Below, one piece after another: positions 2,318 to 23,040 of a stretch of 36,475 bases of DNA. Source of the DNA: Pelotomaculum sp. UBA3103 (GTDB lineage Bacteria; Bacillota; Desulfotomaculia; Desulfotomaculales; Pelotomaculaceae); assembly GCA_002365855.1 (NCBI GenBank), contig DFAP01000111.1, positions 1 to 36,475 on the forward strand. Reading direction: 5' to 3'. The position numbers and the translations under genes were made by a program. The first letter of the stretch is position 1; every line of letters begins with the position of its first letter. The notes under the pieces are model-generated. The model did no database searches. It was not told the origin of the DNA and was given only the letters and a program-made list of their open reading frames with translations.

Positions 2318-4733
2318 TTATTGGAGAAATACTTTACCCTCATCTCCGTCTACCACTATCTTTTGGCCGTCTTTAATGGCACTCATGGCGCCCCGCACAT
2401 TCACCACGGCGGGGAGCCCGAACTCCCTGGCCACTATGGAACCGTGTGACAGATGTCCACCGGTTTCCATGACCACGGCGCAAGCTTTTAAAAACAACGG
2501 GGTCCAGCACCATCCCAATTCCCCTCCAGTATAGAAACCAAATCCGACCAGGAGCAAAAAAAGATATCACCAGGCTCATCGATAATGCCCCGTTGAAAAA
2601 AACGGCTGCCCAACTCCAGGGCCATCAAACGATAGGCTTCCAGCGCCACAACCAGAACTGATTTAGTCATTTCCCGTACCGCTGCCCCTTCTTGTGCCTC
2701 CCGGATCCCTTTTTGAATCTCAACCAGCTCACCTGGCGGCACTTTTTCTGTTACTTCCTGCCAGGCACGGTCAAATTTCTCGTTTTGCAGGTCTTTCCAT
2801 TGATCGGGATTTGCGGTTGCCATGTTGCTCTTGATGATATCCATCAGATATAAGGGATCTTCCTTCCACCGGGGGTTGATGATATCCAGTTCGTAAACCG
2901 CACGGTGCCCAAATTCCTTGATATAGTCTCTGAATTCCTTCTTAAAAAGAGACCCTTCCGGCAGACACTCTTCCCAGGAACAAGGATCAAAATTATTACC
3001 GGTTAAATATTGTACAGCGTCTTGATCGTGACGGGCCAACTGAGCCAGTTCCATTAAGCGGTAGCCGTGGTCGGCGCTGGTTATACCTGATTCCCCGCCT
3101 ACCATTAAGCCATTTAAAACGACCATCACCCTCGGTCCTAAATACCCGGACAGTTTTTGCAGCAGCAGCATGAGCGGCCAGTTGCCGGCTCCGCTTAAAA
3201 AAGCGAATTTTTCGCTATAGGCCTTCATGATTCGGCCCAGTTCATTGTATTTATCAATAAAACCACTGTCGGGAGTCCGTTCAAATCCTGTGCCAATTAA
3301 GGACTCGACGGAACGGGCAACTCCAGCGAAAGTACGGGAAGTGTTGGCGGCAGCCTCCATGATGAGAGATACGCCCTTCATCGCCCGGCCTTGTCTTTCC
3401 AGGCCAACCTCACCGCTGTATGGATCGGTATCTTTTATCTCAATCTCTGGTTGGTGCCCTCCCCAGAAGGGATTAAAATCTTTTGGCAGCATCCCGGTGG
3501 AATCATAATAAGCCCACTGCAGGGCAGACACGTTGCAGTACAACCTGCCCTTGATCAAGCGAGAGAATTGAAAACCATCCGGTATTCGATAGCCTGGTTC
3601 TGAAAAAGTAGTGTACTGAATGGTATCGATAATGTGCTTCATTACCCGGCGATGCAGGGGACTGATGACCATGGGGACTGCATCGCGGTAGTTGCCGTTA
3701 GACCATATCAGAGCCTTATTTTTTAAAGCCTCAAAGGTATATTCGGTTAACGCGGTCACCGGCCGCACCTGGAGTAAAAAGAAATCCTGCCCGTCGAAAG
3801 CCCATTCCACATCCTGGTGCTCTTCACACTCCCCCAGGGACTCGAAGACCCGCAGCAGCAATAAACCCAGTTTTTCAATGTTTTCATCCTTAAGAGCCTG
3901 ACGCGGGGTCATATTTTCGCCGGGTACAAAACGGGTTCCGCCGCTGGCGCTGGACATGGTCTTCCCCTGCTTGGATCCGATTTTCTTTGTTGCTATTTGA
4001 GGCATGGCACTAAAAGCAGATACATCAAGATAATATGTGTCGGGCTCTATCACGCCGTTTACCACCGATTCTCCCAGCCCGAAGTTGGCGTTGACCACGA
4101 ATATATCCTCGCGGCCGGTCTGTGGATCGCAGGTGAAAGCCACCCCGGCTGCCTCGGCCTCCACCATTTCCATAATAACTACGGCTTGACTCATTTCTTC
4201 GTCGCTAACGTTCATTTTTCGCCTGTAAGCTACAGCCCGGGGCGTCACAGGGAGGCGTAGCACCCTTTGATGGCAGATAAAATATTATCCGTGCCTTTCA
4301 CATTTAAAAACGATCCATGAATGCCGGCAAAAGACGCTTTGCCGGAGTCCTCCGCAGAGGCAGAAGACCTGACTGCTGCCGGCTTATCCAGAATGCCGAT
4401 TTTTTTCAGGTTAGAAACAAGCTCATCCATAATGCTTGAAGGGATATGGCCAGCCTTGATTTTTTCCCTAAGCAGAAAAAGCTTTTGCTCAGTCTCCTTC
4501 TCTCCAATGTTACCGGTGGTTACACTTTTGGTTATTTCCCCAGTATCTTTAAGCAAGTTGTTTTCTTCGATAAAACTCTGGTATGCCCCGGCGCCAAGGA
4601 CGCCTCCAGCAGGGACCTTGAAACCGTAATGATCGAGCCTGCCCAGGTTCCATCCCTTCCCTCCGGCTGCTTCAAATCCGGCTTGAAAAGCCCTGGGCCA
4701 ACTGAAAAAGAAAACTCCGTCACCCTTTTCCAT
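2318..4733 (-). pseudogene. PEP-synthase/rifampin-phosphotransferase-like enzyme, copy 1 (frameshifted and internally deleted)
   Basis: The family is a three-part dikinase: ATP-grasp domain, variable middle, C-terminal phosphohistidine domain. Compared with the intact copies in this window, copy 1 has two lesions. First, near 4246 the codons that read Leu-Trp-Thr-Pro elsewhere have lost one base, giving CTG TGA, so the N-terminal frame stops after about 163 residues. Second, near 2530 the sequence jumps from the ILEGNWDG segment to WTPLFL, skipping about 85 codons (the linker and the start of the swivelling domain) and shifting frame again. The GGHLSHGS segment with the phospho-accepting His survives in the last fragment. 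Chosen start: ATG at 4733 behind AGGAGAGG; a longer frame reaches 4796 without better support. The middle domain differs from the other copies. Its TetR gene lies upstream and is intact. Confidence 0.85.
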
Positions 4734-4891
4734 TTGCAACCTCTCCTGTAACAATTTTACTTTTTCTTCTTCGTTATTAAAGCCCTTTTTTTGCAATGTT
4801 TAGAAAAATCTAAATCACAATCCATGGCTCATATCGAAAACTTTTCTATGTTAGTTACCCGGACTATTGTTAATCGATCCCTGTAAACTGT

Positions 4892-5524
4892 TTATATTTG
4901 ACTTCCTTCCCTCTCAATTACCCCGTATATAAACAGGTCTACTATTTTTGCCATTTCTTTGCGAAGTTCGAACCCTGACGGATCCTTCAGCCAATTCAGG
5001 ACAATGACGCTGCGGGAAATATTCAATTGCTGTACCATCAGTTTAACTGAGATATCCCGCCTGATTTCGCCGGCCTGCTGGCCCTGCCTGATAATCTCAG
5101 TCATAATGCTTTGTGTAGCTGTTTCGTAACTGCTGTCTCCAGGTCCCATAAACATATTCTTCAGACGATAGCCCAGACATATACCCGTAATCTCCGGGTT
5201 GATTTCTACCCACTCATAGGCTTTATCGAGCGCGGCTATTAACCGTGTCCTAGTGTCAGGCAGGTTTCGCAAATTATCAGAGGTCTCTTGAGCCAGCCCC
5301 TTTGAGATAACTTTAACATACTCATCAACAATAGCCTCTTTGACAGGAAAGTGATTATACAGGGTTTTCCTGGCGATGTCGGCGACCTCGGCAATCTGTT
5401 CCATGGTTGTATTGTTAAAACCCTGGCGCTGGAATAAATCTATAGCCACTTCAATGATTCTCTGCCGCGTTTCCCTTTTCTTCCTCTCTGTCCTGCTTTC
5501 AGCCGGCACATCCATTGGCTCCAT
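4892..5524 (-). CDS. TetR/AcrR-family repressor, module 1
   Basis: A 210-residue protein with an N-terminal TetR helix-turn-helix (about residues 14-60): basic RTERKKRETRQRII, then GFNNTTMEQIAEVADIA and the recognition stretch ARKTLYNHF. It is followed by an all-helical ligand-binding domain. It is the first gene of module 1 and is read toward phosphotransferase copy 1, with about 160 bases between its stop and that gene's start. The ATG has a strong GGAGG site. Two palindromes upstream (5591-5603 and 5605-5621) are its likely operators. The family normally represses its own operon and is released by a small ligand; the ligand is unknown. It remains intact although the downstream enzyme is broken, so it could still bind the similar site in module 3. 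Confidence 0.9.
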   Translation of the reverse strand: MEPMDVPAESRTERKKRETRQRIIEVAIDLFQRQGFNNTTMEQIAEVADIARKTLYNHFPVKEAIVDEYVKVISKGLAQETSDNLRNLPDTRTRLIAALDKAYEWVEINPEITGICLGYRLKNMFMGPGDSSYETATQSIMTEIIRQGQQAGEIRRDISVKLMVQQLNISRSVIVLNWLKDPSGFELRKEMAKIVDLFIYGVIEREGSQI

Positions 5525-5579
5525 TACTGCACCTCCTATAAGTGTTAGTCATTGACGGGCATGTATTGTTAAGGATCGA

Positions 5580-5585
5580 ATTATA
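5580..5585 (-). promoter_or_regulatory. candidate -10 box for the module 1 TetR operon
   Basis: On the minus strand this is a perfect TATAAT placed about 55 bases before the TetR start codon. The palindrome at 5591-5603 would lie between it and the -35 position, which has no good consensus match. A second TATAAT at 5605-5610 is also possible. Confidence 0.4.
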
Positions 5586-5590
5586 CTACT

Positions 5591-5603
5591 ATACATTATG
5601 TAT
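5591..5603. promoter_or_regulatory. operator palindrome 1, module 1
   Basis: ATACATTATGTAT is a perfect 13-base palindrome with a single central base, in the promoter region of the TetR gene. It shares the TACAnTnTGTA pattern with the module 3 site at 14477-14487. Confidence 0.6.
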
Positions 5604-5604
5604 G

Positions 5605-5621
5605 ATTATACAATGTGTAAT
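5605..5621. promoter_or_regulatory. operator palindrome 2 (imperfect), module 1
   Basis: ATTATACAATGTGTAAT is a 17-base palindrome with one mismatched pair. Its centre is 16 bases from the centre of the neighbouring perfect palindrome, so two dimers could bind side by side. Confidence 0.5.
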
Positions 5622-5692
5622 ATGTGTTATTGTTATTTTCCATCATAATTTCTAATGTGTCAATACCCAAAATTTATTTTTCTAATATAAAA

Positions 5693-5713
5693 AGGCAGCT
5701 GCAAGAGCTGCTT
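5693..5713 (-). terminator. rho-independent terminator, minus strand
   Basis: GCAGCT and AGCTGC form a stem around the loop GCAAG, with outer A-T and G-T pairs. Read on the minus strand, it is followed by TTTTTATATT. It would stop transcripts arriving from the 6-10 kb side just before the module 1 promoter. It is closely similar in sequence to the hairpin at 14599-14619. Confidence 0.6.
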
Positions 5714-5944
5714 AAATGAGACTATTACATAACCTTGAGGTTAATACGTCCTTCACATGCGCGGCAGTAGTTCATAGATAAAGTTGTAATTACAAGGGAA
5801 TCGTTATTTGGACTGCCCTGGTCATGTTGATGCTCTTCCAAAAGGATGAATCAAGTGTATACTTAAGATGATGAAGCAACTCATGGAAATAATACCAACT
5901 TGAGAAAAATCAAGAGTCCAGAAAGTAGTTTTTTTTAATGGAAA

Positions 5945-6034
5945 ATGGATTTATCCTGGGAAATTCGACATCTCACTAAAAAATTCCGCAAGAAAATAGC
6001 TGTAGACGATCTAAATTTTTCCCTCATGAAATAA
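5945..6034 (+). pseudogene. remnant of an ABC-transporter ATPase N-terminus
   Basis: An ATG frame of 29 codons reads as the first strands of an ABC ATPase: EIRHLTKKFRKKIAVDDLNF, as in proteins where this segment precedes KGEIFGFLGPNGAGKT. It stops at TAA where the Walker A region should begin. No ATPase sequence follows; about ten bases later a methyltransferase-like remnant starts. This is best read as a gene end left by a deletion. It is short, so the match rests on about 20 residues. Confidence 0.5.
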
Positions 6035-6458
6035 ACTTATATTTCCTCGGTTTCTTGATTCCCGGTCTTGATTTTCGTTTTCACTGGTCGTCTGTACCTG
6101 GGTTTGGATTGTCATTGCAGCGAGTGCTGTTGTTTTCTTAGGCTATATTTTTATTATCATCGTTTTTAAGGAAAACAGTTATGCTTCAACTGTCATACAG
6201 GTCGAGCAAGAACAACAAGTTATAACAACAGAACTCTATGCCATAGTCCGCCACCCCATGTACTTGGGAATGTTACTAATGTTATCGTTTACTCCTCCCG
6301 CCTTTGGCTCTTATTGGGCAATAACGCCTTCCCTTCTCTGTATCCCTTCATTAGTACTCAGGATAAAAACTGAAGAGGAGGTGCTGTTACCAGACCTCCC
6401 GGGGTACAAAGAATATAGTATGAAGACACGTTATCGTTTGATTCCGTCAATTTGGTAA
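6034..6458 (+). pseudogene. isoprenylcysteine carboxyl methyltransferase (ICMT)-family protein, truncated and frameshifted
   Basis: The C-terminal part is clear: VIQVEQEQQVITTELYAIVRHPMYLG, then a hydrophobic segment, TEEEVLLPDLPGYKEYS, and a Y-R-L-I-P end, the conserved core of bacterial ICMT-like membrane methyltransferases. Upstream, a different frame (from about 6034) reads FLIPGLDFRFHWS, the segment that normally precedes it. The switch of frame lies near 6085-6100, so the gene is frameshifted. The N-terminal membrane segments and start codon are missing. Together with the ABC remnant before it, this marks a decayed, plus-strand segment between modules 1 and 2. The stretch 5714-5944 shows no recognisable gene. 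Confidence 0.65.
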
Positions 6459-6505
6459 ATGAATAACTTAGACATACATGCCGCTAGTTTTCATGCATAT
6501 CCTAT

Positions 6506-7432
6506 TTATTTTAAAAGAAACTCAATAAATACCTTGTTAATTAACTCCGGCTGTTCCATATGAACCACATGCCCGACGTTCTTCAATACTTTATACTTTA
6601 AACCATACTTTGAATACGTTTTTATAACTGACGGGTGATACGCCAGTATATCACAATCACCTATAAGAAACAGCGCTTTATCCCGGAATACGGAAATTGC
6701 TTGATTGTCAAATCTCGTTACTTCTTTTTGTTTCTTGATCCTGCTGTATTTAAGCATATAAAACCATTGCTTCAAAAACTCTTTATGTAATGAGGATATA
6801 TCAAAATTTGGGCCGGTTATTTTTTTAAGAAATTTCATTGCATTTTCTTCAGTGGGATTCAAAATTGTCGGCAAGCAAGCAATCAGACTTCTTGATATTA
6901 GCAGGGTGGTTTTTAAATTCTTTTCAGGGAGATAGAATGACATGGGAACAATTTTGTTCACCCTATCGGGACTTTTGGCCGCATAAGCTAAGGTCATGTA
7001 ACCGCCGTATGATATTCCGGTTATATTTGTTTTATAAATATTTAGGGCGTTTAATATATCATCGACCCATAAACCTAAGTCAAATTCTTTGGTATAACTC
7101 CCGTTCGGTTCACTTTTTCCCGCGCCCTCAAAAAAATCTACGGCCACTATAAAGAAATAATTTGCTAATTCCTGTACGTTAGTTAACCAGTCCATTGCCG
7201 AATTAGTGCCGGAACCGTGAAAAAGCAATAAAGGGGGGTTCGTCCTGCTGCCTGAGATGATAATATGTGTTGTCCCATACCGAGTATCAATATCCAGTTC
7301 TTCCTTATCAACACCCCATAGCTCAAGCAGCCTGTCATAAGATTCATAAATCAATTGCTTTCCCGCCAGGCTTTTGAATCTTCCCATCATCTTAGGCAGG
7401 CCCCCTTTTTTTGACTCCAGTATACCATTCAT
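6506..7432 (-). CDS. alpha/beta hydrolase, carboxylesterase NP-like
   Basis: About 308 residues. The order of motifs fits the Bacillus carboxylesterase NP-type branch: YDRLLELW, DTRYGTTHIIISG, PPLLLFHGSGTN (oxyanion region), DFFEGAGKS, the nucleophile elbow GISYGG, the acid near LIGDCDILAYHP, and the histidine in NVGHVVHMEQPE. All catalytic residues appear present, so it should be an active serine hydrolase, substrate unknown. It follows phosphotransferase copy 2 in the same direction with about 50 bases between them, so it is probably the last gene of the module 2 operon. Start uncertain: ATG at 7432 has a weak AGGA; ATG at 7390, preceded by GGGGG, is an alternative; a TTG at 7444 is also in frame. 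Confidence 0.85.
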   Translation of the reverse strand: MNGILESKKGGLPKMMGRFKSLAGKQLIYESYDRLLELWGVDKEELDIDTRYGTTHIIISGSRTNPPLLLFHGSGTNSAMDWLTNVQELANYFFIVAVDFFEGAGKSEPNGSYTKEFDLGLWVDDILNALNIYKTNITGISYGGYMTLAYAAKSPDRVNKIVPMSFYLPEKNLKTTLLISRSLIACLPTILNPTEENAMKFLKKITGPNFDISSLHKEFLKQWFYMLKYSRIKKQKEVTRFDNQAISVFRDKALFLIGDCDILAYHPSVIKTYSKYGLKYKVLKNVGHVVHMEQPELINKVFIEFLLK

Positions 7433-7481
7433 GTCCTGCCGCAATCGAGACCCGCAACAACCCAGGAAACCTTTAGAAAAC

Positions 7482-10109
7482 TTACAGAAATACCTTCCCC
7501 TCGTCGCCGTCGACGGTAATCAACTGACTGTCCTTTATTATCTTCATAACACCCGGTATGTTTACCACGGCGGGGATACAGTATTCCCGGGCTACAATGG
7601 CTCCGTGAGACAGAGACCCTCCCGCCTCCATAACAATGGCGGAAGCCCTCAAGAACAGGGGCGTCCAGCCGGGGTCGGTTGACGGGGCGACCAGCACATC
7701 TCCGGCCTGCAGTTTTCCCCCTTCGTCCGGATGGCAAATCAATTTTGCCGCGCCGGAAGCCTTCCCCGCAGCCACACCCATACCCGCCAGCGCTTTGCCC
7801 GTGCCGGGGGCAGTGGGCTCCACAAACTGGGGTACTTCATCAATAATCAAGTCGGGGGGTGAGAGCGCCTCCATTTCTTTTCTTGCAACTTTCCTTTCGG
7901 CCACCAGAACGTCCAGTCCCCTGCCGCTCCAGTCTCCACGGAGTATAGATAGAATTTCACTCAAGGCACAGTGGTATATATCGTTCGATTCGGCAAAGAT
8001 ACCTTTTCCCGCCAGCCGGCGGCCGATTTCCTGGAAAACCAAACGCAGATCAAATATCTGTACCTTGACCAGCATGGATTTGCCCTTTTCCCTGAGTTCC
8101 GCGCCTTTGACGGCCTGTTTTAACAGGTAGTCAACCAATCCACGGCTGTAAAAGGGGACTCTTTGTATTACTTCCCGCCAGGACTGATCGGCTTTTTCCT
8201 TTTGCCTGGCCTTTATCTTGCCCGGATCGGCGGTTTCCATGCTATTCCTGACGACATGCAAGAGGTAAGAGGGGTCATCCCGCCAGCAGGGGTTGATCAT
8301 ATCCATTTCATAAACTCCGCAGTGCCCGTATTGGGCCAGGAAATTCCGCAGCGACTGCTTGAACCTGGATTCCTCCGGCAGCTCCTTTTCCCACTGGAGG
8401 GGCTGAAAAGGCACTGCGGATAAGAACCTCCGAGCGGAGGCGTCACCCCGGGCTACTTCAGCCATTTCCACCAGGCGGTAACCTTGCTCCGCACTGGTAA
8501 TGTCCCCCCTCCCCGCCATCAGGGCGTTGGCGTAAGCTTTCCCTTTACCGGGAAAATATTTTTCCAGCACTTTTACCAAAGGACTTATATCACCGCCGCG
8601 GACAAAAGACAGAAACACCGGCCAATATTGCCCGAAAGCGCCTTTTATTTCAAAAATCCTATTTATTAACTCTCTTTCACCCAGACTTTTTAAATCCTCT
8701 TTTAACAGGGTATCTGTAAGGCTTTCAACCCTGGCAAAGTGTTTCGGCGCGTTTCTGGTGTTTTTCATCACATTAAAAACAAGTTTTAGTATGCGCCCGA
8801 CTCTTTTTATTCCTTTCAAGCCGCAGTAAGGTTTCTTTTCATTAATTTTTATTTCCTGCTGGAATCCCCCGCCGTATTCGTTTATCTGCCCGGGCGCGAT
8901 ACCAAACGCATCATAATTGACCCATTGAACAATGGAAAGGTTCCAATAGGCCCGCCCCTGGTATAATTTTATACCTTTTATTCCTGCGGGCGTTTTAGGG
9001 ATCTGGTCAGTTCCCGCTATAAGATAATTCCAGAGGTTCCAGTTAAGAGTTGACATGACCATGGGAAAGGCGTCCTTAAAGTTGGCATTAGACCAAAAGT
9101 CAGGCTGGTTTTTGAGCTCGTCAAAAGTATACCTGGGCAGCGCCGTCACCGGCCTGGCCTGGACCAGGGCGAAATCCTTGCCGTCAAACACCCACTCGAT
9201 GTCCTGGTGCTGTTCCCCGCGGCCGAGGGCGTCAAAGACCCGCTGTATCATCAGACCAAGTCTGCGGATGTTTTCATCGCTCAAGACCTGTCCCGCCGCT
9301 AACCCGGCAGACTCGACAAACTCCGTCCCGCCGGATGCTCTCGTGATGGTCTTTCCCTCTTTGCAGCCGATCCTTTTTTCCGGCTCCTCGCTCCAGTAGT
9401 CCAGACGGTATTCGTCCGGCTCGACGGCGCCGCTGACCACGCTTTCACCCAAACCAAAATTGGCGTTTATCAGCACGACATCTTCCTGGCCCGTGCGGGG
9501 GTCGCAGGTAAAGCCGACACCGGCTGCCTCGGCCTCCACCATCTCCATGATTACCACGGCCTGGCCCACCTCGTTATCTTTAAAGTTCATTTTCCGCCGG
9601 TAGGAGACAGCCCGGGGTGTCCACAGGGAGGCGTAACAACCTTTAATGGCGGACAGGATGCTGTCCATGCCCCGGATATTTAAGAAAGACTCGTGGATGC
9701 CGGCAAAAGACGCCCCGGCGGAGTCCTCGGCGGAGGCCGAAGACCTGACGGCCAGTGGTTTATCAAGTATTCCGTGGTGTTTAAGACTGGAGATTAACTC
9801 TTCCTGAATATACCCGGGGATATGGCCGGCCCTGATTTTTTCTCCGATCAGGGAGAGTTTTTGCTCAATCTCCTTCTCTGCAATATTACTGATAGTCACA
9901 CTCCGGGTGATATCCCCCAAGGCTTCAAGCAGGTTGTTTTCTTCAATGAAACTCTGGTAGGCTTCGACTGTGAGGACGCCCCCGGCGGGAATATTGAACC
10001 CGTACCGCTCTAGCCTGCCCAGGTTCCACCCCTTCCCCCCGGCACACTCCACCCCTGCCTGAAAAGCCCCGGGCCAGCTGAGAAAGAAAACTCCTTGGCT
10101 CGTTTTCAT
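7482..10109 (-). CDS. dikinase-type phosphotransferase (PEP-synthase/rifampin-phosphotransferase-like), copy 2, intact
   Basis: 875 residues. The N-terminal PPDK-type ATP-grasp domain (about 10-325) has GGKGWNLG with K26, AVRSSASAED with R122, FTCDPRTG near 200, E305 in DIEW, and Q317/R319 in LVQARPVT, all at spacings like those in rifampin phosphotransferase. The middle domain (about 330-765) is helical and poorly conserved. The C-terminal swivelling domain ends with GGSLSHGAIVAREY, where H835 is the expected phospho-accepting residue. There is no PEP-utilising TIM barrel after it, so this is not a normal PEP synthase. The family transfers the beta phosphate of ATP, via His, to an acceptor, yielding AMP and Pi. 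The acceptor is unknown here. The ATG has AGAGGG upstream. A TetR operator lies at 10158-10169 just before the gene, and the TetR gene precedes it. Probable operon with the downstream hydrolase. Confidence 0.9.
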   Translation of the reverse strand: MKTSQGVFFLSWPGAFQAGVECAGGKGWNLGRLERYGFNIPAGGVLTVEAYQSFIEENNLLEALGDITRSVTISNIAEKEIEQKLSLIGEKIRAGHIPGYIQEELISSLKHHGILDKPLAVRSSASAEDSAGASFAGIHESFLNIRGMDSILSAIKGCYASLWTPRAVSYRRKMNFKDNEVGQAVVIMEMVEAEAAGVGFTCDPRTGQEDVVLINANFGLGESVVSGAVEPDEYRLDYWSEEPEKRIGCKEGKTITRASGGTEFVESAGLAAGQVLSDENIRRLGLMIQRVFDALGRGEQHQDIEWVFDGKDFALVQARPVTALPRYTFDELKNQPDFWSNANFKDAFPMVMSTLNWNLWNYLIAGTDQIPKTPAGIKGIKLYQGRAYWNLSIVQWVNYDAFGIAPGQINEYGGGFQQEIKINEKKPYCGLKGIKRVGRILKLVFNVMKNTRNAPKHFARVESLTDTLLKEDLKSLGERELINRIFEIKGAFGQYWPVFLSFVRGGDISPLVKVLEKYFPGKGKAYANALMAGRGDITSAEQGYRLVEMAEVARGDASARRFLSAVPFQPLQWEKELPEESRFKQSLRNFLAQYGHCGVYEMDMINPCWRDDPSYLLHVVRNSMETADPGKIKARQKEKADQSWREVIQRVPFYSRGLVDYLLKQAVKGAELREKGKSMLVKVQIFDLRLVFQEIGRRLAGKGIFAESNDIYHCALSEILSILRGDWSGRGLDVLVAERKVARKEMEALSPPDLIIDEVPQFVEPTAPGTGKALAGMGVAAGKASGAAKLICHPDEGGKLQAGDVLVAPSTDPGWTPLFLRASAIVMEAGGSLSHGAIVAREYCIPAVVNIPGVMKIIKDSQLITVDGDEGKVFL

Positions 10110-10157
10110 GAATACCCTCTCCCCTGAATTATCTTATACACCGCATATTTACATACT

Positions 10158-10169
10158 GACCGTCCGGTC
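10158..10169. promoter_or_regulatory. TetR operator in front of phosphotransferase copy 2
   Basis: GACCGTCCGGTC has perfect 5-base inverted arms with a 2-base centre. The same 12 bases occur at 10819-10830 before the TetR gene. On the minus strand a TATATT -10-like box (10171-10176) directly precedes it, but no good -35 is seen. Confidence 0.7.
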
Positions 10170-10187
10170 TAATATATATGAAAAAAA

Positions 10188-10790: not shown

Positions 10791-10818
10791 GACCTTCTCC
10801 TTTATGACATTGCATACC

Positions 10819-10830: not shown

Positions 10831-10837
10831 TAATCTT

Positions 10838-14487: not shown

Positions 14488-14520
14488 ATATTGAACATTG
14501 TAATATACTTCGTTTAGATT

Positions 14521-14549: not shown

Positions 14550-14598
14550 GGGGGCATGGAAAAAATTTATTATATAATGAAAAACCACCAAAATAAAA

Positions 14599-14619
14599 GG
14601 GCAGCCTCAAGAGCTGCCT
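14599..14619 (-). terminator. rho-independent terminator after the module 4 flavoprotein gene
   Basis: GGCAGC and GCTGCC pair around a 7-base loop. On the minus strand the stem is followed by TTTTATTTTGG. It ends the transcript of the flavoprotein gene at 14764-15501 and insulates module 3. It is similar to the hairpin at 5693-5713, consistent with duplication of whole modules. Confidence 0.65.
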
Positions 14620-14763
14620 CAGGTTATAGACAAAGTCGTCCATGGTGTTGTTGGAACCGCTTGGCTCCTCTGCTCTACAATGACCAGACCAACTAAAGAA
14701 AAGCTAATAATTCATAAGAATGACTTAATTAATGGATAAAAGTGATAAAGCAAACAGGACATA

Positions 14764-15501
14764 TTACTTGTTTTGGGAACCAGCCAGGAACATATCAATT
14801 TTTGCATTAAATCGCTGAACGTAAATATCCGCCGGTATAAAATTTTGTTCTAATAATTTTTGTGTTTCATCTGAAAATTTCATGTCCTTTACGATTTCCC
14901 GGCCCGCTTTATGTAAAAGTTCTTTATAGCCGTTTATTATGGGCTCTAATTCCTTGACTCCAGCCGTTAACAACTCCCCTTCGGTCGCATATATTTCAGC
15001 CGCTAAATCAGTCAGCCAACCTTTTGCAGCTTTTTTCATCAAAAGAGAAAGGGCCTGGAAATTAGACCTGTCGGGACGGGTTGCACTGGCAATAACAATG
15101 AACTTCGGAGGTATTCCGTTTTTAAAATGTTTTGATGGGCGGCTCTGGTATTCCCCATCTTCACCCTTTTCATAACCGGGAGAGCCGATACATATGCTTC
15201 GATCCATAAATACTTTCATCATCCCTGAAACGTTAAAAACATAGAGCGGTGTTGCCAAGACAACTATATCGGATGCAACGAATTTTGACATCAAATCTCC
15301 CATATCGTCATCAATACTGCATTTACCGCCTGAAGATAAACAATGATAACATGCTTTACAATGGTTGATTTCTTTATCGGCAAGAAAGATGTTTTCGACT
15401 TCGGCTCCCGCCGCTTCGGCGCCCTCTAAAAACGCCGTGACCATCACGTTCGTATTGCCGGACTTTCTCCTGGGACTTCCGTTAAAAGCAGTGATTTTCA
15501 T
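14764..15501 (-). CDS. iron-sulfur flavoprotein / NADPH-dependent FMN reductase-like protein, copy A
   Basis: 245 residues. The flavodoxin-like fold starts with MKITAFNGSP and a phosphate-binding loop for FMN (GSPRRKSGNT, 8-17). A compact cysteine set C48-x2-C51-x2-C54-x6-C61 is the hallmark of the iron-sulfur flavoprotein branch, which carries a [4Fe-4S] cluster next to FMN and takes part in two-electron redox reactions in anaerobes. The ATPLYVFNVSGMMKVFMDR segment near 83-101 is the usual second FMN loop and dimer region. The gene lies downstream of phosphotransferase copy 4, but a hairpin at 15713-15738 separates them, so it may be only partly cotranscribed. A strong AAAGGAGGAG precedes the ATG. 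A close paralogue is at 25464-26234. The redox partner and substrate are unknown. Confidence 0.85.
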   Translation of the reverse strand: MKITAFNGSPRRKSGNTNVMVTAFLEGAEAAGAEVENIFLADKEINHCKACYHCLSSGGKCSIDDDMGDLMSKFVASDIVVLATPLYVFNVSGMMKVFMDRSICIGSPGYEKGEDGEYQSRPSKHFKNGIPPKFIVIASATRPDRSNFQALSLLMKKAAKGWLTDLAAEIYATEGELLTAGVKELEPIINGYKELLHKAGREIVKDMKFSDETQKLLEQNFIPADIYVQRFNAKIDMFLAGSQNK

Positions 15502-15712
15502 AATTTTATTCTCCTCCTTTTTTCAATCTTTCCTTTACGCTGCGCCTAATCAAACTAAAATCATCCCTAAAATATTCATACCTGCCTGCTTAACATCTGT
15601 TCCCACTATTCACAGCATCATTACCGCACCGGCTGCCAGTGAAATTATCGGGAACGGCAAGGATGGAATGCCCAGCAGCTCATCATAGTGGGTAAGCTTC
15701 AGGCAAAACACA

Positions 15713-15738
15713 ACGGCCACCTCGACTTGGGCGGCCGT
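15713..15738 (-). terminator. hairpin between phosphotransferase copy 4 and the flavoprotein gene
   Basis: ACGGCCACC and GGCGGCCGT form a 9-base-pair stem with one G-T pair around an 8-base loop. The minus strand continues TGTGTTTTG, a moderate U-tract, so it may be a leaky terminator. The same hairpin occurs before the second flavoprotein gene at 26360-26385. The 328-base gap 15502-15829 holds nothing else I can support. Confidence 0.5.
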
Positions 15739-15829
15739 CACTAAAAATACTATCTAAAACATATTTCAACTAATTTGATTAAATTCCTCTATATGGCATA
15801 TAAAAATAATTCCATCCAATAACTGCAGC

Positions 15830-18478
15830 TTATATATATACCTTCCCCTCGTCGCCGTCGACGGTAATCAACTGGCTGTCTTTGATTGTCTTCATCACGC
15901 CCGGAATGTTCACCACCGCAGGGATGCCGTACTCACGGGCTACAATGGCTCCGTGGCACAACGATCCTCCCGCTTCCATAACAATGGCGGATGCCCTCAG
16001 GAAAAGCGGCGTCCAGCCCGGGTCGGTTGACGGCGCCACCAGCACGTCTCCAGCCTGCAGTTTTTCTCCCTCGTCAGGATGGCGAACCAGTCTCGCCGCC
16101 CCGGCAGCCTTCCCTGCGGCTACGCCAAGACCTATAAACGAATTACCCTGACTGGGGGCGGCCGGTTTCGCAAAATGAGGAGCATTATCAACAATAAAGT
16201 CGGGGGGCGAAAGGGCTTCCAATTCTCCTCTCCTTATCTTCCGCTCAGCCACCAGAACATCCAATCCCCTGCCGTCCCAATCCCCCTGCATAATAGATAT
16301 AATTTCATTCAAAGAACAGTGATATATATCAGCCTGTTCCGCCAGGATTCCCCCTTTCCGCCAGCCGGCGACCGATCTCCTGGAACAAGATGCGTTCGGA
16401 CTCAAATATCTTGACTAACATGGACTTTCCCATTTCCTTGCGTTCAGCGCCTTTAACGGACTGGATTAACATTTTATTTATTGAACCGCGTCTGTAAAAG
16501 GGGACCCTCTCGTTTACTTCCCGCCAGGCCTCGTCCACTTTTTCCTTTTGACTGGCCTTTGTTTTACCGGGATCGGCGGTTTCCATGGTGCTTCTAATTG
16601 TATTTAAGAGGAAGGACGGGTCCTCCCTCCAGCGAGGGTTGATGATATCCAGTTCGTAAATACCCCGGTGCCCGTAATCCGCCAGGAAGTTTCGAAATGA
16701 TTGTTTGAACGGGGATTCATCTGGCAGCTCTTTTTCCCATAATAGAGGTGGAAAAGGTTCGGCAGAAAAAAACCTCCGTGCAGCGGCGTCCCCCCGGGCT
16801 ACTTTAGCCATTCCTGCCAGACGATAGCCGTGCTCGGCGCTGGTGATGTCTCCACTCCCTGCCATCAGGGCATTAGACATCGCCCGCCCTTTACCCGGAA
16901 AATATTTTTCCAGCGTTTTTATGAATGGAAATGTTACCTCAGCTGAACCAAAAACATATACAGGGATAAATTCAATGGTTGCGCTTCTAATCTCAGTAAT
17001 TTTTTTGATTAAATCTCTTTTCGTGAGGCTCTTCAAATCTTCTTTTAGCATGGCTCCTGTAAAACAGTTAACATCATTAAAACATTTTCCCGTGTTCTTT
17101 CTGATTTTTTGTACAATAAAAGCACCTTTTATCAAGCGGCCCAATCTTTTACATCCCTTAATGCCCCGGTATGGTTTTTCTTCGCTAATTTCCACTTCCC
17201 GCCCCCCGAAATTATCGTACTTTTCCTGAGCACCCATTCCCCGGGGATCTATACCCAAAGCATCATACAAAAGCCATCCCAGAATGTTTCCATTGAAATA
17301 TGCCCTGCCCTGATACAATCTGGCAACCTGTAAGCCGGGGGGTATTTGATAGCCCATTGTTCTTAAGGGAGCGCTAAACACCGTATTAAGGAACGGCTTT
17401 TTAAGGCTCCAGTTGAGGGTGGACTGGACCAATGGCATTACTTCCCTAAGATTCATATTTGACCATACATCGGGTTGATTTCTAAATCCGTCTATGGTGT
17501 ACCTTGGCAGCGCCGTCACCGGCCTGGCCTGGACCAGGGCAAAATCTTTTCCGTCAAACACCCATTCAATATCCTGGTGCTGTTCCCCGCAGCCAAGGGC
17601 GTCAAAGACCCGCTGGATCAGCATACCTAACCTGCGAATATTTTCATCGCTTAAAACCTGACTTGCCGCTGGCATGGCAGACTCGACAAATTCCGTCCCG
17701 CCGGCTTTTTTGGCAAGGGTTTTCCCTTCTTTGCGGCCAATTTTCTTTTGGGTTAGATCACACCAATAGTCTAAACGATATTCATTGGCTCAACGGCGCC
17801 GCTGACCACACTCTCACCCAGGCCGAAATTGGCGCTTATCAGCGCCATATCTTCCTGGCCGGTGCGGGGGTCGCAAGTGAAGCCGACTCCGGCGGCCTCA
17901 GCCTCCACCATCTCCATGATCACCACGGCCGGGATCACCTCGTCATCTTTAACATCCATTTTCCGCCTGTAAGCGACAGCCCTGGGTGCCCATAAAGAGG
18001 CATAACATTCTTTAATGGCGGACAGGATATTGTCCAGTCCCCGGATATTTAAGAACGATTCGTGGACCCCCGCGAAAGACGCTTTGCCGGAGTCCTCGGC
18101 AGTGGCCGAAGAGCGAACGGCCACCGGATTCCCCAGTATGCCGGCGGCTCTCAGTTTCTCTTCCAGCTCATCCCGGACATTTGAAGGGATGCGCCCGGCC
18201 ATTATTTTTTCTCTGAGCAGAAAAAGTTTTTGTTCATTCTCCTTATCCCCAATGTTAACGGTTGTTATATTTCGGGTGATTCTCCACATATCCTCAAGCA
18301 GGTTGTTTTCTTCAACAAAACTCCGGTGCGCTCCGGCTGTAAGGACGCCTCCGGCGGGAACATTGAACCCGTACCTCTCCAGCCTGCCCAGGTTCCACCC
18401 TTTCCCTCCGGCAGCTTCCACCCCGGCAAGGAAAGCCCCGGTCCAGTCGAGAAAGAAGTCTCCGCAATTTTTATCCAT
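15830..18478 (-). pseudogene. dikinase-type phosphotransferase, copy 4 (two frameshifts)
   Basis: The full family layout can be followed across three frames. N-terminal part from ATG 18478 (GGGGAGGAAG site): GGKGWNLG, AVRSSATAEDSG, GFTCDPRTG. Near 17788 the codons for Glu-Pro-Asp-Glu-Tyr have lost a base (CCAATG where relatives have CCGGATG), so this frame ends after AVEPMNIV. The middle frame carries DIEW, LVQARPVT and the variable domain until about 16352, where a run of five C on the plus strand has one base more than expected. The last frame carries QADIYHC and GGSLCHGAIVAREYG with the phospho-His. The total length, 2649 bases, is an exact multiple of three because the two shifts cancel. 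It is probably inactive unless the shifts are sequence errors; the homopolymer one could be. Catalytic residues are all still encoded. Confidence 0.85.
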
Positions 18479-18553
18479 GGTCTTCCTCCCCATTGGTTAT
18501 TTTTTCTCTATCCGGCTGTCGCTGCAATAATGTCATGGTTTATTTTTAGTTCT

Positions 18554-19189
18554 TTAACCGTCCCTGTTTTCTACCCCTTTTAGATAAAGGTCCATAATCA
18601 TATTAATACCTTCATCTACCGGGAATAATTCCGGATTTGCAACCCAGAGAACACCCCAATTACAGAACATTGAATCCAGGTGAGCGGCAAGGACCATACT
18701 GTCCATGTCCCGCCTGATTTCCCCCGCCTCCTTACCTCTCTCTATAATTGGCGCCAGGACATCTCTAAAACCGCTGCTCTCGCTCAGATCCAAATCCCTG
18801 AAGACTTGAAACACTTTTTGTAACCGGTAAGTATAATATTTTTCATAAATTTCCTTATTTAAATCAATTTGAAACCACTCCAGTGCTTTATGAAGCACCG
18901 CGACTAAGCGTGACCGGGTATCGGGCAGCTGTAATGCCTGGCTGAGCGCTTCAGGCCCCTGCTCCTTAATTATTCTCTGAACAAATTCGCATATGACAGC
19001 CTCTTTGACGGGGAAATAGTTGTATAGGGTTCTACGGGCAATGTCTGCGTTGTCCGCAATTTGCTCCATTGTGGCAGAATCAAATCCCTGCTTATTAAAT
19101 AAACCCATTGCTGCTTCAATAATCTTCCTTTTTGTTTCATCTTTCTTTTTTTCCACCCTACTCTGGGCAGGCTCTTTTTTGTTTTCCAT
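18554..19189 (-). CDS. TetR/AcrR-family repressor, module 4
   Basis: 211 residues from ATG 19189, which has GGAGG five bases upstream; the frame extends to 19252, but that would run through the operator array. The helix-turn-helix contains RVEKKKDETKRKII, GFDSATMEQIADNADIA and the recognition stretch ARRTLYNYFPVKEAV. The ligand-binding domain is strikingly similar to that of module 5, including the identical stretch NWGVLWVANPELFPVDEG near the C-terminus, so the two repressors may sense related ligands. The upstream control region is a regular array of TGCA elements (19205-19255), quite unlike the module 5 operators. It precedes phosphotransferase copy 4 by 75 bases and should be cotranscribed with it. 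Confidence 0.9.
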   Translation of the reverse strand: MENKKEPAQSRVEKKKDETKRKIIEAAMGLFNKQGFDSATMEQIADNADIARRTLYNYFPVKEAVICEFVQRIIKEQGPEALSQALQLPDTRSRLVAVLHKALEWFQIDLNKEIYEKYYTYRLQKVFQVFRDLDLSESSGFRDVLAPIIERGKEAGEIRRDMDSMVLAAHLDSMFCNWGVLWVANPELFPVDEGINMIMDLYLKGVENRDG

Positions 19190-19204
19190 TTGCGCCTCCA
19201 TTTT

Positions 19205-19255
19205 TGCATATTCTGCATATATGCACATACTGCAGACATGCACAGCGTGCATATA
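19205..19255. promoter_or_regulatory. operator array of six TGCA elements, module 4
   Basis: Three tandem 17-base units, each TGCA-N5-TGCA-N4, give TGCA at 19205, 19214, 19222, 19231, 19239 and 19248. Within it, TGCATATATGCA (19214-19225) is a perfect palindrome, and ATGCAC/GTGCAT (19238-19252) is an inverted pair around 3 bases. It lies between the promoter and the TetR start codon. Confidence 0.65.
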
Positions 19256-19260
19256 TAACC

Positions 19261-19289
19261 ATTCTTACATTAATTCAATTATTTGTCAA
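19261..19289 (-). promoter_or_regulatory. sigma-A-type promoter of the module 4 operon
   Basis: On the minus strand, a TTGACA consensus -35 (19284-19289) is followed after 17 bases by AAGAAT (19261-19266), a weak -10. The TGCA array begins right at the expected start site. Confidence 0.55.
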
Positions 19290-19310
19290 GATTATTTGAG
19301 CAAAAATAAA

Positions 19311-19334
19311 GCCGCGGGGCAACCGAGCCGCGGC
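19311..19334 (-). terminator. rho-independent terminator after module 5
   Basis: GCCGCGG and CCGCGGC pair with a 10-base loop. On the minus strand the stem is followed by TTTATTTTTG. It lies 37 bases after the mini-protein gene that closes module 5. Confidence 0.7.
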
Positions 19335-19370
19335 ATAATGAATCTTATGTTTTCCATATTGATATAGCAG

Positions 19371-19571
19371 TCACCTAATAAACTTATCAAACCGGTCTAT
19401 CTCGTCCGGATCTATTCCGGTTGTTTTTATAGCATCACTTTGAATATAAAAATCACACCACTTGCAAATATAAAATTTGGATTCGCTGTATTTAATTTTT
19501 TGATAAAGGTAATCACTGCTGGAAAAAATCGTGAAGCCCTTCCTGCATATCATGCATGTTGTATCAAACAT
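19371..19571 (-). CDS. four-cysteine zinc-ribbon-like mini-protein, module 5
   Basis: 66 residues with two CxxC pairs (C6/C9 and C36/C39). The third single cysteine of the module 3 paralogue is Ser here, so the four paired cysteines are the likely metal ligands. No family is recognised. It starts 17 bases after the stop of phosphotransferase copy 5 behind a GGGGG site, the same arrangement as in module 3, and ends just before a strong terminator, so it is the last gene of the operon. Its C-terminus is shorter (DEIDRFDKFIR) because of a one-base difference from the paralogue. Function unknown; conserved linkage points to a role with the phosphotransferase. Confidence 0.75.
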   Translation of the reverse strand: MFDTTCMICRKGFTIFSSSDYLYQKIKYSESKFYICKWCDFYIQSDAIKTTGIDPDEIDRFDKFIR

Positions 19572-19588
19572 CTGGTTTCCCCCTTGCC

Positions 19589-22236
19589 TTAGCTCTGAAG
19601 ATATACCTTTCCCTCACCGCCGTCGACGGTAATCAACTGACTGTCTTTGATCATCTTCATCACGCCCGGAATATTTATTACCGCCGGTATGCCGTACTCC
19701 CGGGCTACAATGGTGCTATGGGACGCAATTCCCCCTGTCTCCACAACAATGGCGGAAGCTCTTAAAAACAGGGGCGTCCAGCCGGGATCGGTTGACGGGG
19801 CTACCAGCACTTCTCCGGCCCGCAGCTTCTCCCCTTCGTCAGGATGATAAATTATTTTTGCCGCACCGGAGGCCCTTCCCGCTGCCACGCCTATACCTGC
19901 CAGCGCATTGCCCTTAACGCGGGTGGCGGGTTCTTCAAAATGAGGTGTTTCATCCATAATTATGTCAGGTGGTGAAATCTTCTCCATCTCTTTCATCCTG
20001 GCCTTGCGCTCGGCCACCAGAATATCCAATCCCTTGCCGGCCCAGTCTCCCTGCAGGACAGAGAAAATTTCAGCACAGGCGCAGTGGAATATATCGGCCG
20101 GCTCCGCAAGGATACCTCTTCCCGCCAAACGCCGCCCCATCTCCTGGAATACCAATCGTATAAATTCAGTTATCTTAACAAGCACCGACTTGGACATTTC
20201 CCTGGTTCCCATACCTTTTACCACCTGTTTTAAAGAACGATTAATTGATCCACGCCTGTATGAAGGCACCTTACGGTTTATTTCCCGCCAGACCTCGTCC
20301 GCCTTTTCTTTTTGCCGGGATCTTATTTTGCCCAAATCGGCTGTTTCCATGGTGCTTCTGATGACACTCAAGGGGTAAGAAGGGTCTTCCCGCCAGCGCT
20401 GATTGATCAAATCCATTTCGTAAACTCCCCGGTGCCCGTATTCCGCCAGGAAGTTTTTAAATGATTTTTTGAACGGGGATTCCTCCGGCAGTTCTTTTTC
20501 CCACAGGGGAGGATTATAGTTTTCACCGGAAAAGAACCTCCGGGCACTGGCGTCACCCCGTGCGGTTTCGGCCAGTTCCACCAGGCGGTACCCCTGATCC
20601 GCGCTGGTGATGTCCCCCTTCCCGGCCATCAGGGTGTTGGCGTAAGCTTTCCCTTTGCCGGGAAAATATTTTTCCAGCGTTTTTACAAGCGGATCCATGT
20701 TGGCGACACCGACACAAGACAGAAACACAGGATAATAATCTATGAATACACTTTTAATCTCTGTGAATTTATTAAGCAGCTCTTTTTCTGTCAGGCTTTT
20801 GAAATTCTCTTTTAACAACCCCCCCCCGTATAACTGTTAACTCGGTCAAAAGATTTTTGCGCGCCTTTTATGGTCTTAAGTCCACGGGGAATTAATTTCA
20901 CCAAGCGCCCCAATCTTTTAATTCCCTTGATTCCGCGGTAAGGTTTTTTTTCGTTGATCTCTATCTCCGGCTGGTGACCTCCCATGGCTTCGTTTAATTG
21001 CCGGGGCGTTATCCCCAAATTATCATAAAAGATCCACTGCTGCATGGACATGTTGAGATATAAACGGCCTTGATATAACCTGATATACCGCAAGCCAGGG
21101 GGTATTTCACAATCCAACACATCGGTTGTATTCTCGCGAAACTTTTCAGATAGTTTATACCAGCTCCAGTTTAGTGTCGACATGACCATGGGCGCGGTAT
21201 CCCTAGCCTGAGCATTGGACCATATGTCCGGCTGGTTTTTAATTTCATCAAAAGTGTACCTGGGCAGCGCCGTCACCGGCCTGGCCTGGACAATTTCGAA
21301 ATCTTTTCCGTTAAACACCCATTCAACATCCTGGTGCCGCTCACTGCCGCCAAGGGAGTCAAAGACCCGCTGGATGAGCATACCTAACCGGCTGATATTT
21401 TCGTCGCTTAAAACCTGCCCCGCCGCTGATCCGGCCGACTGGACAAATTCAGTCCCACCGTCTTTTTTAGCAATGGTTTTCCCTTCTTTGCGCCCAATTC
21501 TTTTTTGTGTTATTTCAAATGCCAAATTCATACGGTATTCATCCGGCTCAACGGCGCCGCCGACCACACTTTCGCCCAGGCCGTAATTAGCGCTTATAAC
21601 AAGAATAAATTCCTGGCCTGTGCCGGGATCACAGGTAAAGCCTACTCCGGCGGCCTCGGCCTCCACCATTTCCATGATCACCACGGCCGGGATCACCTCG
21701 TCATCTTTGACATCCATTTTCCGCCGGTAAGCGACAGCCCTGGGTGTCCACAGGGAGACATAGCAGCCTTTAACGGCGGACAGGATGTTGCCGAAGCCGC
21801 GGACATTTAAGAATGATTCGTGGACCCCCGCGAAAGACGCCTTGCCGGAGTCCTCGGCAGTGGCCGAAGAGCGAACGGCCACCGGCTTACCCAGTATGCC
21901 GGCGGCTCTCAGTTTTTCTTCCAGATCATCCCTGACATTGGAAGGAATACGGCCGGCTTTGATTTTTTCCCTGAGCAGGAATAATTTTTGTTCTATCTTC
22001 TTATCCCCGATGTTGCCGGTTGTTACACTTCGGCTGATTTTCCCTATGTCTTCAATTAGGTTGTTTCCTTCAATAAAACTCCGGTATGCTTTGGATGCAA
22101 GGCACCCTCCGGCGGGAACATTGAACCCGTACCTCTCCAGCCTGCCCAGGTTCCACCCCTTGCCCCCGGCCGCCTCCACCCCAGCCTGAAAAGCATCGGT
22201 CCAGTTGAGAAAGAACTCTCCGCAATTCTTATCCAT
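19589..22236 (-). pseudogene. dikinase-type phosphotransferase, copy 5 (frame interrupted at a run of nine G; possibly phase-variable)
   Basis: Start ATG 22236, behind GGGGGAGAAG; the frame reaches 22290 without a better site. The first 474 or so residues carry GGKGWNLG, AVRSSATAEDSG, GFTCDPGTG, DVEW and IVQARPVT and run into the middle domain up to VNSYTG. There a run of nine G (minus strand; 20819-20827) puts the frame into a stop, while the next frame continues with LLKENFKSLTEKEL to the normal end with GGIASHSTIVAREYG. Seven or ten G would restore one reading frame of about 881-882 residues. The His-loop Gly after His is Ser here. Apart from the G run there is no lesion, so the gene may be switchable, recently broken, or misread in sequencing. 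Cotranscribed with TetR upstream and the cysteine mini-protein downstream. Confidence 0.85.
20819..20827 (-). repeat. nine-base G homopolymer inside copy 5
   Basis: Nine consecutive G on the coding strand replace the non-repetitive Thr-Gly-Ala codons found at this point in copies 3 and 4. Frame analysis: length 7 or 10 gives an open gene, length 9 gives a stop within three codons. Confidence 0.9.
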
Positions 22237-22310
22237 GTCTTCTCCCCCATTGATTATTTTTTCATCCGGCTGTCGCTCCATTAATGTCATATGTGTTTAT
22301 TTTTAGTTCT

Positions 22311-22937
22311 TTAACCGTCCCTGTTTTCTACCCCGCTTAGAAAAAGGTCCATAATCATGTTAATACCCTCATCTACCGGGAATAATTCCGGATTTGCCAC
22401 CCAGAGAACACCCCAATTACTGTACATCGTTTCCAGGTGGGCGGAAATAATCATGCTGTTTATATCCCGCCTGATTTCTCCCGCTTCTATGCCCAATTTT
22501 ATAATTGGTTCCAGGACATCCCTGAAGCCGCTGCTCTCGCTCATATCTAAATCCCTGAAGACTTGAAACACTTTTTGTGTCCGGTAAGTAGCATATTTTT
22601 CAAAAATGTCCGTATCAGATTTAATATGAAACCACTCCAGTGCTTTATAAAGCACCGAAACCAGGCGTGACCGGGTATCGGGCAGCCGCATTACCTGCTT
22701 GAGCGCCTCAGGCCCCTGCTCCTTGATTATTCTCTGTACAAATTCGCAAATGATAGCTTCTTTGGCGGGGAAATGGTTATAGATGGTCCCCTTGTTGACG
22801 TCGGCCTCTTCGGCTATTTGCTCTACCGTGGTCTGGTCAAACCCCTGACTATTGAATAAATCCATGGCCACAGTAATAATCTTTTTCCTGGTTTCTTCTT
22901 TTTTTCTCTCGGTTCTGCTTACTCTGACCTGCTCCAT
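22311..22937 (-). CDS. TetR/AcrR-family repressor, module 5
   Basis: 208 residues. The helix-turn-helix contains RTERKKEETRKKII, GFDQTTVEQIAEEADV and the recognition stretch NKGTIYNHFPAKEAI. The ligand-binding domain closely matches module 4 (shared ESSGFRDVL and NWGVLWVANPELFPVDEG), but the recognition stretch differs, and so do the operators. The ATG has AGAGGTGG upstream. It is followed after about 75 bases by phosphotransferase copy 5. Two TCAACnnnGTTGA palindromes lie upstream, one overlapping the -10 box, the standard layout for a self-repressing TetR gene. The ligand is unknown. Confidence 0.9.
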   Translation of the reverse strand: MEQVRVSRTERKKEETRKKIITVAMDLFNSQGFDQTTVEQIAEEADVNKGTIYNHFPAKEAIICEFVQRIIKEQGPEALKQVMRLPDTRSRLVSVLYKALEWFHIKSDTDIFEKYATYRTQKVFQVFRDLDMSESSGFRDVLEPIIKLGIEAGEIRRDINSMIISAHLETMYSNWGVLWVANPELFPVDEGINMIMDLFLSGVENRDG

Positions 22938-22965
22938 TCTGCCACCTCTTCAATTGGTCTTTTAT

Positions 22966-22978
22966 TCAACCTGGTTGA
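22966..22978. promoter_or_regulatory. operator 1, module 5
   Basis: TCAACCTGGTTGA: perfect 5-base inverted arms around 3 bases, 28 bases before the TetR start codon. Confidence 0.65.
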
Positions 22979-22997
22979 CTATACAAATATGTTGAAT

Positions 22998-23014
22998 AAT
23001 CAACTAAGTTGATT
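22998..23014. promoter_or_regulatory. operator 2, module 5
   Basis: AATCAACTAAGTTGATT: perfect 7-base inverted arms around 3 bases. It overlaps the -10 box at 23012-23017. An extra GTTGA at 22991-22995 forms a further overlapping inverted pair. Confidence 0.7.
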
Positions 23015-23040
23015 TTAGTACATTTTTTTATAATTGGCAA
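23012..23040 (-). promoter_or_regulatory. sigma-A-type promoter of the module 5 operon
   Basis: On the minus strand, TTGCCA (23035-23040) and TAAAAT (23012-23017) are separated by 17 bases. The second operator overlaps the -10 box. Confidence 0.65.

Follow-up and report, generated by a model that had tools for sequence, protein, structure and literature searches.

Why five TetR-type regulator genes should stand in a row, each before a large dikinase-like gene, is the question raised by a stretch of 36,475 nucleotides from Pelotomaculum sp. UBA3103 (contig DFAP01000111.1, assembly GCA_002365855.1), the whole of which is called the window below. It is contig C49 of a 2.38-Mb assembly of 148 contigs that is 87% complete. 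A first-pass annotation, made from the letters alone, had proposed a five-module array of TetR-controlled phosphotransferases at 2318–23040, for defence or catabolism. The list of open reading frames (ORFs) and profile searches of the window give five TetR genes on the minus strand, each followed, in the same direction and after a gap of 20–95 bp, by a dikinase-family sequence. This part of the proposal stands, except that only dikinase copies 2 and 3 are intact: there are five modules counted by regulator, and two counted by intact enzyme. In the window, a widespread pair of genes, for a TetR repressor and a dikinase resembling rifampin phosphotransferase (RPH), occurs in amplified form. It is reasonably likely that each module is a self-contained phosphotransferase operon under its own repressor, and that such operons multiply, shift in specificity and decay. 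By analogy with RPH, each enzyme probably adds phosphate to a different small molecule.

Domain architecture and conserved residues of the dikinases

Copies 2 and 3 (minus strand, 7482–10109 and 11174–13801) are ORFs encoding 875 residues each, assigned from their Pfam domains and catalytic residues. Both contain PF01326 (PPDK_N) at the N-terminus and PF00391 (PEP-utilizers; PEP, phosphoenolpyruvate) at the C-terminus. The PEP-utilising barrel PF02896 was not reported in either by Pfam at E ≤ 0.001. The domain order is ATP-grasp, middle domain and C-terminal phosphohistidine (swivel) domain, which is the RPH-type order recognized in the first-pass annotation. The closest solved structures for copy 3 are those of Listeria RPH (RPH-Lm, PDB 5HV1 and 5FBS), to which its middle domain aligns by sequence over part of its length.

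Genes and loci in stretches taken from relatives are designated by L-numbers (such as L041_06). In the full-length tree, 37 members of the clade to which the window enzymes belong form one group (Shimodaira–Hasegawa-like approximate likelihood ratio test, SH-aLRT, 100), separate from ten RPHs (96). The family trees are quick trees with SH-aLRT values only, no bootstrap, and flagged long branches (four in the full-length tree). In RPH-Lm numbering, transferred through an RPH scoring above the family cut-off, Lys22, Arg117 and His825 are kept in 37/37 clade members, and Arg666 and Glu667 in 36/37 each. Copies 2 and 3 keep all five residues, and Thr136 is replaced by Ser in both. The rifampin-contact residues (Gln336, Tyr351 and others) are not kept in copies 2 and 3. 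Throughout the clade (37/37), Gln336 is changed to Arg or Lys and Gln337 to Asp or Glu, whereas RPHs above the cut-off keep Gln336 in 8/10 and Gln337 in 10/10 cases. As the catalytic residues of RPH are kept and the rifampin contacts are not, the enzymes are RPH-like but not RPH.

The scores of copies 2 and 3 with the NCBIfam model RIF_Ptrans_rph, 372.0 and 379.5 bits, fall well below its cut-off of 999. On these scores, the replaced rifampin contacts and the separate clade, RPH proper was rejected. Copy 3 shares 22% identity with an RPH, and 21% with a PpsA-like protein of D. gibsoniae, across its two C-terminal domains. The genome to which the window belongs encodes, on contig C101 (G000:C101:5474-8110; L057, L105), a near-RPH enzyme with 981.6 bits against the cut-off of 999, the upstream neighbour of which is not a TetR gene.

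PEP synthase and PPDK also possess PF01326 and PF00391. They were rejected as identities of the window enzymes by the absent PF02896 barrel and by scores below cut-off: 311.2 and 318.0 bits with the PEP synthase model TIGR01418 (cut-off 739.75), and a value below cut-off with the PPDK model. The top NCBIfam model, NF004878, has PEP synthase as its subfamily name, but its 452.3 and 448.6 bits are likewise below cut-off (945). The first-pass description of the enzymes as lacking the PEP-binding barrel is supported. The annotation had named three observations that would speak against its reading; what was found is no PEP barrel, no clear orthology to PEP synthase, and TetR linkage that does extend to relatives.

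Homology supports the proposed mechanism as far as phosphotransfer. Judging from the conserved residues, the enzyme would move the β-phosphate of ATP to the swivel histidine. As in RPH, the phosphate would then pass to a hydroxyl of a small molecule held in the middle domain, the products being AMP, phosphate and the phosphorylated compound. Distant relatives of RPH are expected to retain phosphotransferase chemistry with other substrates (PMC4844700).

Copies 2 and 3 are 75% identical in the ATP-grasp domain, 57 and 68% in the first and second halves of the middle domain, and 86% in the swivel domain. The same four parts are 92, 89, 88 and 91% identical between copy 2 and its nearest relative, L030_10 of Pelotomaculum UBA5255 (89% identity). 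In these alignments, the middle, putative substrate domain is the fastest-changing part. The mean pairwise identities of RPHs (70, 54, 67 and 85%) rank in the same way, so a fast middle domain is a trait of the superfamily.

TetR genes and their predicted operators

The five TetR genes, recognized as ORFs with family matches, are all open and encode 200–232 residues: T1 (4892–5524, recognition helix IARKTLYNHF), T2 (10188–10790), T3 (13828–14463, VARGTVYNHF), T4 (18554–19252, IARRTLYNYF) and T5 (22311–22937, VNKGTIYNHF), all on the minus strand. T1, T3, T4 and T5 belong to one TetR family with 38–74% identity. T2 has a QacR-like C-terminal domain and resembles QacR over nearly its whole length.

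The linkage of TetR and dikinase extends to relatives, as the first-pass annotation had anticipated. Among full-length clade members of the first set that have an upstream neighbour, a TetR gene lies directly upstream on the same strand in 35/36 cases, against 3/472 for other genes; the sole exception is L103_04. In a second set, drawn from different orders in the phylum, the figure is 31/34, three of the 31 repeating earlier loci. The linkage is missing there in L154, L167 and L171, and two of the 31 linked gaps are wide (252 and 476 bp). The QacR-like type pairs with one enzyme subclade (the window gene window_08, L030_10, L021_12 and L022_18) and occurs also in L147 and L148. The main TetR family accompanies nearly all remaining clade members; L111 has a TetR of yet another kind, with weak matches. 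Within the main family, the distances between TetR proteins and those between enzymes are correlated (r = 0.79, 30 pairs), a value reached by 0/5000 permutations; inclusion of the QacR type lowers the coefficient to 0.38 (34 pairs).

TetR genes also precede the more distant dikinases L137, L138, L141, L146, L023_08, L027_03, L025_09 and L028_03, and stand directly upstream of 3/10 RPHs above the cut-off, all three outside the core group. The coupling to TetR therefore extends beyond this clade. None of the near-RPH enzymes L105, L046, L101, L037 and L094, however, has a TetR gene as its immediate upstream neighbour. The distant dikinase at L141:3964-6477 (G206) lies between two TetR genes. In three streptomycetes, 15% of TetR-family genes fall in the co-transcribed group (PMC3511530). 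The likeness to QacR and other TetR repressors includes predicted operators that are palindromes beside a promoter; unlike with QacR, the target here is a co-transcribed dikinase and not a divergent efflux pump.

A 13-bp palindrome, TNNAC-N3-GTNNA, was picked by eye from upstream regions and counted within 150 bp upstream. It is present before 26/34 TetR genes of the main type, compared with a mean of 1.40 and a maximum of 6 in 300 shuffles, and with 9/380 controls. Since the motif was derived by eye from these training regions, it was tested on loci fetched later or previously unused. With L107, L112 and L152 removed as repeats of training loci, it was found in 21/25 distinct held-out regions (500 shuffles: mean 1.56, maximum 6). 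In the first set, the spacing of neighbouring sites is 17 bp in ten cases, 34 bp in three, 29 bp in one and 23 bp in one, the last in a QacR-type region; in the second set, it is 17 bp in three cases and 34 bp in two. Modules of the QacR type have another palindrome, GACCGGACGGTC, in 2/6 cases, with diverged look-alikes recognized by eye in the other four. The main motif in one of four QacR-type regions (L030_10) is taken as chance. Before the TetR gene L026_11, a perfect 40-bp palindrome with arms of 20 is present although the 13-bp motif is absent.

This predicted operator family is new here. A literature search by title and abstract opening, outside the coverage of which most subscription journals lie, returned no description of a TetR-dikinase unit or of a TNNAC-N3-GTNNA operator.

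In the window, the four main-type modules have the main motif and module 2 the different palindrome. The predicted operators, given as read on the minus strand, are TACAC-ATT-GTATA for T1 (5607–5619), TACAC-AGT-GTATA and TAAAC-GAA-GTATA for T3 (14475–14487 and 14504–14516), TGCAC-GCT-GTGCA for T4 (19239–19251), and TCAAC-CAG-GTTGA and TCAAC-TTA-GTTGA for T5 (22966–22978 and 23000–23012, 34 bp apart); that of T2 is GACCGGACGGTC at 10819–10830. Those of T1 and T3 have one half-site in common. As the start of T4 is, by eye, more likely near 19189, its predicted operator precedes the gene. Promoter-like sites on the minus strand were found at 5635–5663, 14521–14549, 19261–19289 and 23012–23040 for modules 1, 3, 4 and 5 (10/12 matches each), and at 10838–10866 for module 2 (9/12). 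In all five modules, the predicted operator starts 0–16 bases past the −10-like box. Individual regulation, as claimed in the first-pass annotation, thus gains support from predicted operators that are specific to each module and lie beside its promoter. Terminator-like hairpins precede modules 1, 3, 4 and 5. The region 4000–23300 has 41 promoter-like sites, and the eight highest-scoring ones include the four 10/12 promoters. As both classes exceed shuffled sequence only moderately (41 against 27.4, s.d. 4.9, for promoter-like and 34 against 22.4, s.d. 5.6, for terminator-like sites), single predictions are weak.

The recognition helix and the operator covary. Lys or Arg at the third variable helix position goes with C at the third base of the half-site in 27/27 cases, and a non-basic residue with no C in 22/22. 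The comparison used the most symmetric site of each of 49 TetR genes with a site, of which 47 are different; among these 47, residue and base agree without exception. T3 has two sites that are equally good, of which only one has C; the first site was taken, and the other would break the rule. T4 and T5 are 74% identical outside the helix and differ in both helix (ARR against NKG) and operator (TGCAC against TCAAC), whereas T4 and the TetR L083_02 are only 35% identical, yet have a basic residue and TGCAC in common.

Each module would thus constitute its own transcription unit, with a promoter, an operator just 3′ of the −10 box, a TetR gene and a three-domain dikinase. As is typical of the TetR family, the regulator would repress its own operon by occupying the transcription start, and binding of a small molecule would release it. 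Both the middle domain and the operator vary from module to module, so that each unit probably responds to, and acts on, its own compound.

Interrupted copies and accompanying genes

The remaining three dikinase sequences, all on the minus strand, are interrupted. Copy 1 (2318–4796) is spread over three frames (pieces 4245–4796, 2488–4263 and 2318–2557), with a frameshift near 4245 and about 80 codons lost before the swivel domain. Copy 4 (15830–18493) has two frameshifts and the change R672K at a catalytic position. Copy 5 (19589–22290) has one frameshift, at a run of nine G, for which phase variation or misassembly are other possible explanations. Residues invariant in the clade are kept at 185/188 positions in copy 2 and 186/188 in copy 3, and at 173/174, 176/182 and 183/188 positions within the covered pieces of the three interrupted copies. 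As these retain nearly all invariant residues, the damage probably occurred recently or, in copies 4 and 5, may be an artefact of assembly.

The copies differ in descent. The pieces of copy 1 best match L041_06 and L043_08 (78–87% by piece), of a subclade different from that of copies 2 and 3, and the pieces of copy 5 are 83–84% identical to the intact L038_14. Copy 4 is mosaic-like: its first 231 residues are 84% identical to L038_14, and its middle piece only 64% to its best matches, for which recombination between copies is a possible origin.

Interrupted copies also occur in relatives. Clade members in the non-redundant loci number 37 intact and 16 interrupted, leaving aside a 31-residue fragment in L022; 35 intact and 13 interrupted members lie outside the window, a ratio that is not a genome-wide estimate because loci were chosen for a match, short fragments are among the interrupted members and the assemblies are mostly incomplete. 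In the complete D. gibsoniae genome, three interrupted copies lie close together (G175:C1:168000-175300, L097), about 14 kb from an intact module, so interruptions are not only assembly errors.

The further genes listed in the first-pass annotation are present, all on the minus strand. They are an alpha/beta hydrolase (6506–7444, by Pfam) 37 bp downstream of copy 2, a four-Cys mini-protein downstream of copy 3 (10935–11156, with weak, below-cut-off similarity to DUF2197), a flavoprotein resembling FMN reductases downstream of copy 4 (14764–15501), and, after copy 5, another four-Cys mini-protein (19374–19571) that shares 75% identity with the one after copy 3. The flavoprotein had been described as an iron-sulfur protein; Pfam confirms the flavoprotein (FMN_red/Flavodoxin_2), and no iron-sulfur family was matched. 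The four-Cys mini-protein also directly follows the enzymes of L095 (the same gene as L070), L147 and L148, with a remnant in L030. Just beyond the array, at 24617–26234, lies a second pair of hydrolase and FMN-reductase-like genes, similar in type to those at 6506–7444 and 14764–15501. At 26465–27831, small gene pairs resemble toxin-antitoxin modules by eye only, no search having been made. No RNA element or tRNA was found in the window at the thresholds used.

Among 36 loci of clade members, the clusters most often found within 5 kb are TetR (35) and dikinase (11), followed by clusters at 7, 4, 4 and 4 loci, the hydrolase and the flavoprotein being among those at 4. A codirectional downstream gene of at least 80 residues within 200 bp exists at 12/36 clade members, no two from one cluster; the neighbour count took only genes of at least 80 residues, so that the four-Cys mini-protein fell outside it.

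Readings of the array

The likeliest purpose of the modules would be the inactivation or trapping of toxic or foreign hydroxylated compounds. Modules would be gained, diversify and decay, two enzymes being still intact in this genome. Inducible inactivation of foreign compounds is judged likelier than catabolism, which is ranked second.

Several points weigh against the reading of the array as separately repressed phosphotransferase operons. Three of the five window enzymes are interrupted. The operator motif is missing in 8/34 training and 4/25 held-out regions (L162, L168, L169 and L173 in the latter), and the general palindrome-length test that preceded its choice by eye gave p < 0.05 in only 4/38 upstream regions. 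The helix rule is backed by only three supported independent switches, all agreeing (sign test, p = 0.25). The same best site is found in 0/19 module pairs within one genome and in 145/1062 between genomes, but 292/5000 permutations gave a value as low as 0/19 (about 0.06), so that a separate operator for each module is likely, not proven. As the RPH middle-domain signatures are absent, phosphotransfer to a small molecule rests on analogy. Finally, the NCBIfam models of the prodigiosin ligases PigC and RedH score 341.2 and 329.3 bits with one and 353.9 and 327.8 bits with the other copy, nearly as high as RPH, all far below cut-offs.

The rival that survives best, although rather unlikely, is a catabolic or scavenging role, in which phenolic or other growth substrates would be phosphorylated as the first degradation step, like by PpsAB, CreHI and HpeHI. 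Related dikinases begin the catabolism of phenol, cresol and hydroxyphenylethanone (PMC12167813); they have related ATP-grasp and swivel domains, and their phosphohistidine relay is, according to published work, the same. Several TetR-dikinase modules are present in D. gibsoniae, which degrades aromatic compounds (PMC4148979). Those catabolic enzymes are, however, split into two proteins, whereas the window dikinases are fused and stand behind a TetR gene. D. gibsoniae also has such a split dikinase, taken as the PpsAB named in its genome paper: an ATP-grasp protein and a swivel-domain protein lie beside UbiD and an activator of the XylR_N/V4R type, with no TetR gene found in the 10 kb covered. 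The identity of copy 3 to its PpsA is about as low as that to RPH, and no pathway gene regularly accompanies the TetR-dikinase unit at the 36 loci. Of the two possibilities in the first-pass "defence or catabolism", this lack of a common pathway gene speaks rather for a reaction complete in itself, such as detoxification. Phage defence was rejected, as neither intact dikinase matches PADLOC among the six proteins given; a weak match of one TetR to a CARF model (17.9 bits) is taken as chance.

Less probable still is an action on an internal metabolite, or a ligation like those catalysed by PigC and RedH, in place of the phosphorylation of a foreign compound. The PigC and RedH scores close to that of RPH are in favour of this. 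Against it, no gene cluster is regularly found around the units, and their distribution is patchy, unlike that of a core metabolic step: 29/113 genomes of the class have a match at E ≤ 1e-80, three of these being only 31–32% identical. The 17 named loci matched with copy 3 are mostly from anaerobes of Desulfotomaculum, Pelotomaculum, Desulfosporosinus or Syntrophomonas type. Mobility was considered and rejected, since the matches in 181 plasmid and 8 phage records are all below 60% identity.

That the array is largely dead, a graveyard of functionless copies with frameshifts partly due to assembly, is very improbable. The interrupted copies in the window and elsewhere and the fragmented assembly would fit, but copies 2 and 3 are open with their invariant residues nearly complete, all five TetR genes are open with predicted operators, and the complete D. 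gibsoniae genome has interrupted copies as well. Strict drug resistance by rifamycin-inactivating RPH enzymes can practically be dismissed, for the identical domain order and the top PDB matches are outweighed by the low RPH score, the replaced glutamines, the separate clade and the genome's own near-RPH on contig C101.

A broader version of the reading as inducible, self-contained phosphotransferase operons is put forward tentatively. TetR-dikinase cassettes may be expandable banks of inactivating kinases in a gene-family arms race, in which the substrate domain, the sensing and the repressor-operator pair all diversify, with separate induction and continual birth and death of cassettes. If so, the 17-bp operator lattice and the one-residue/one-base rule would stop cross-talk of neighbouring cassettes. 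The dedicated TetR beside each enzyme offers a practical handle, as the inducer of the repressor should report the substrate of the enzyme, and with the predicted operators, reporter screens can be built directly. The family is a natural record of repressor-operator divergence among related modules.

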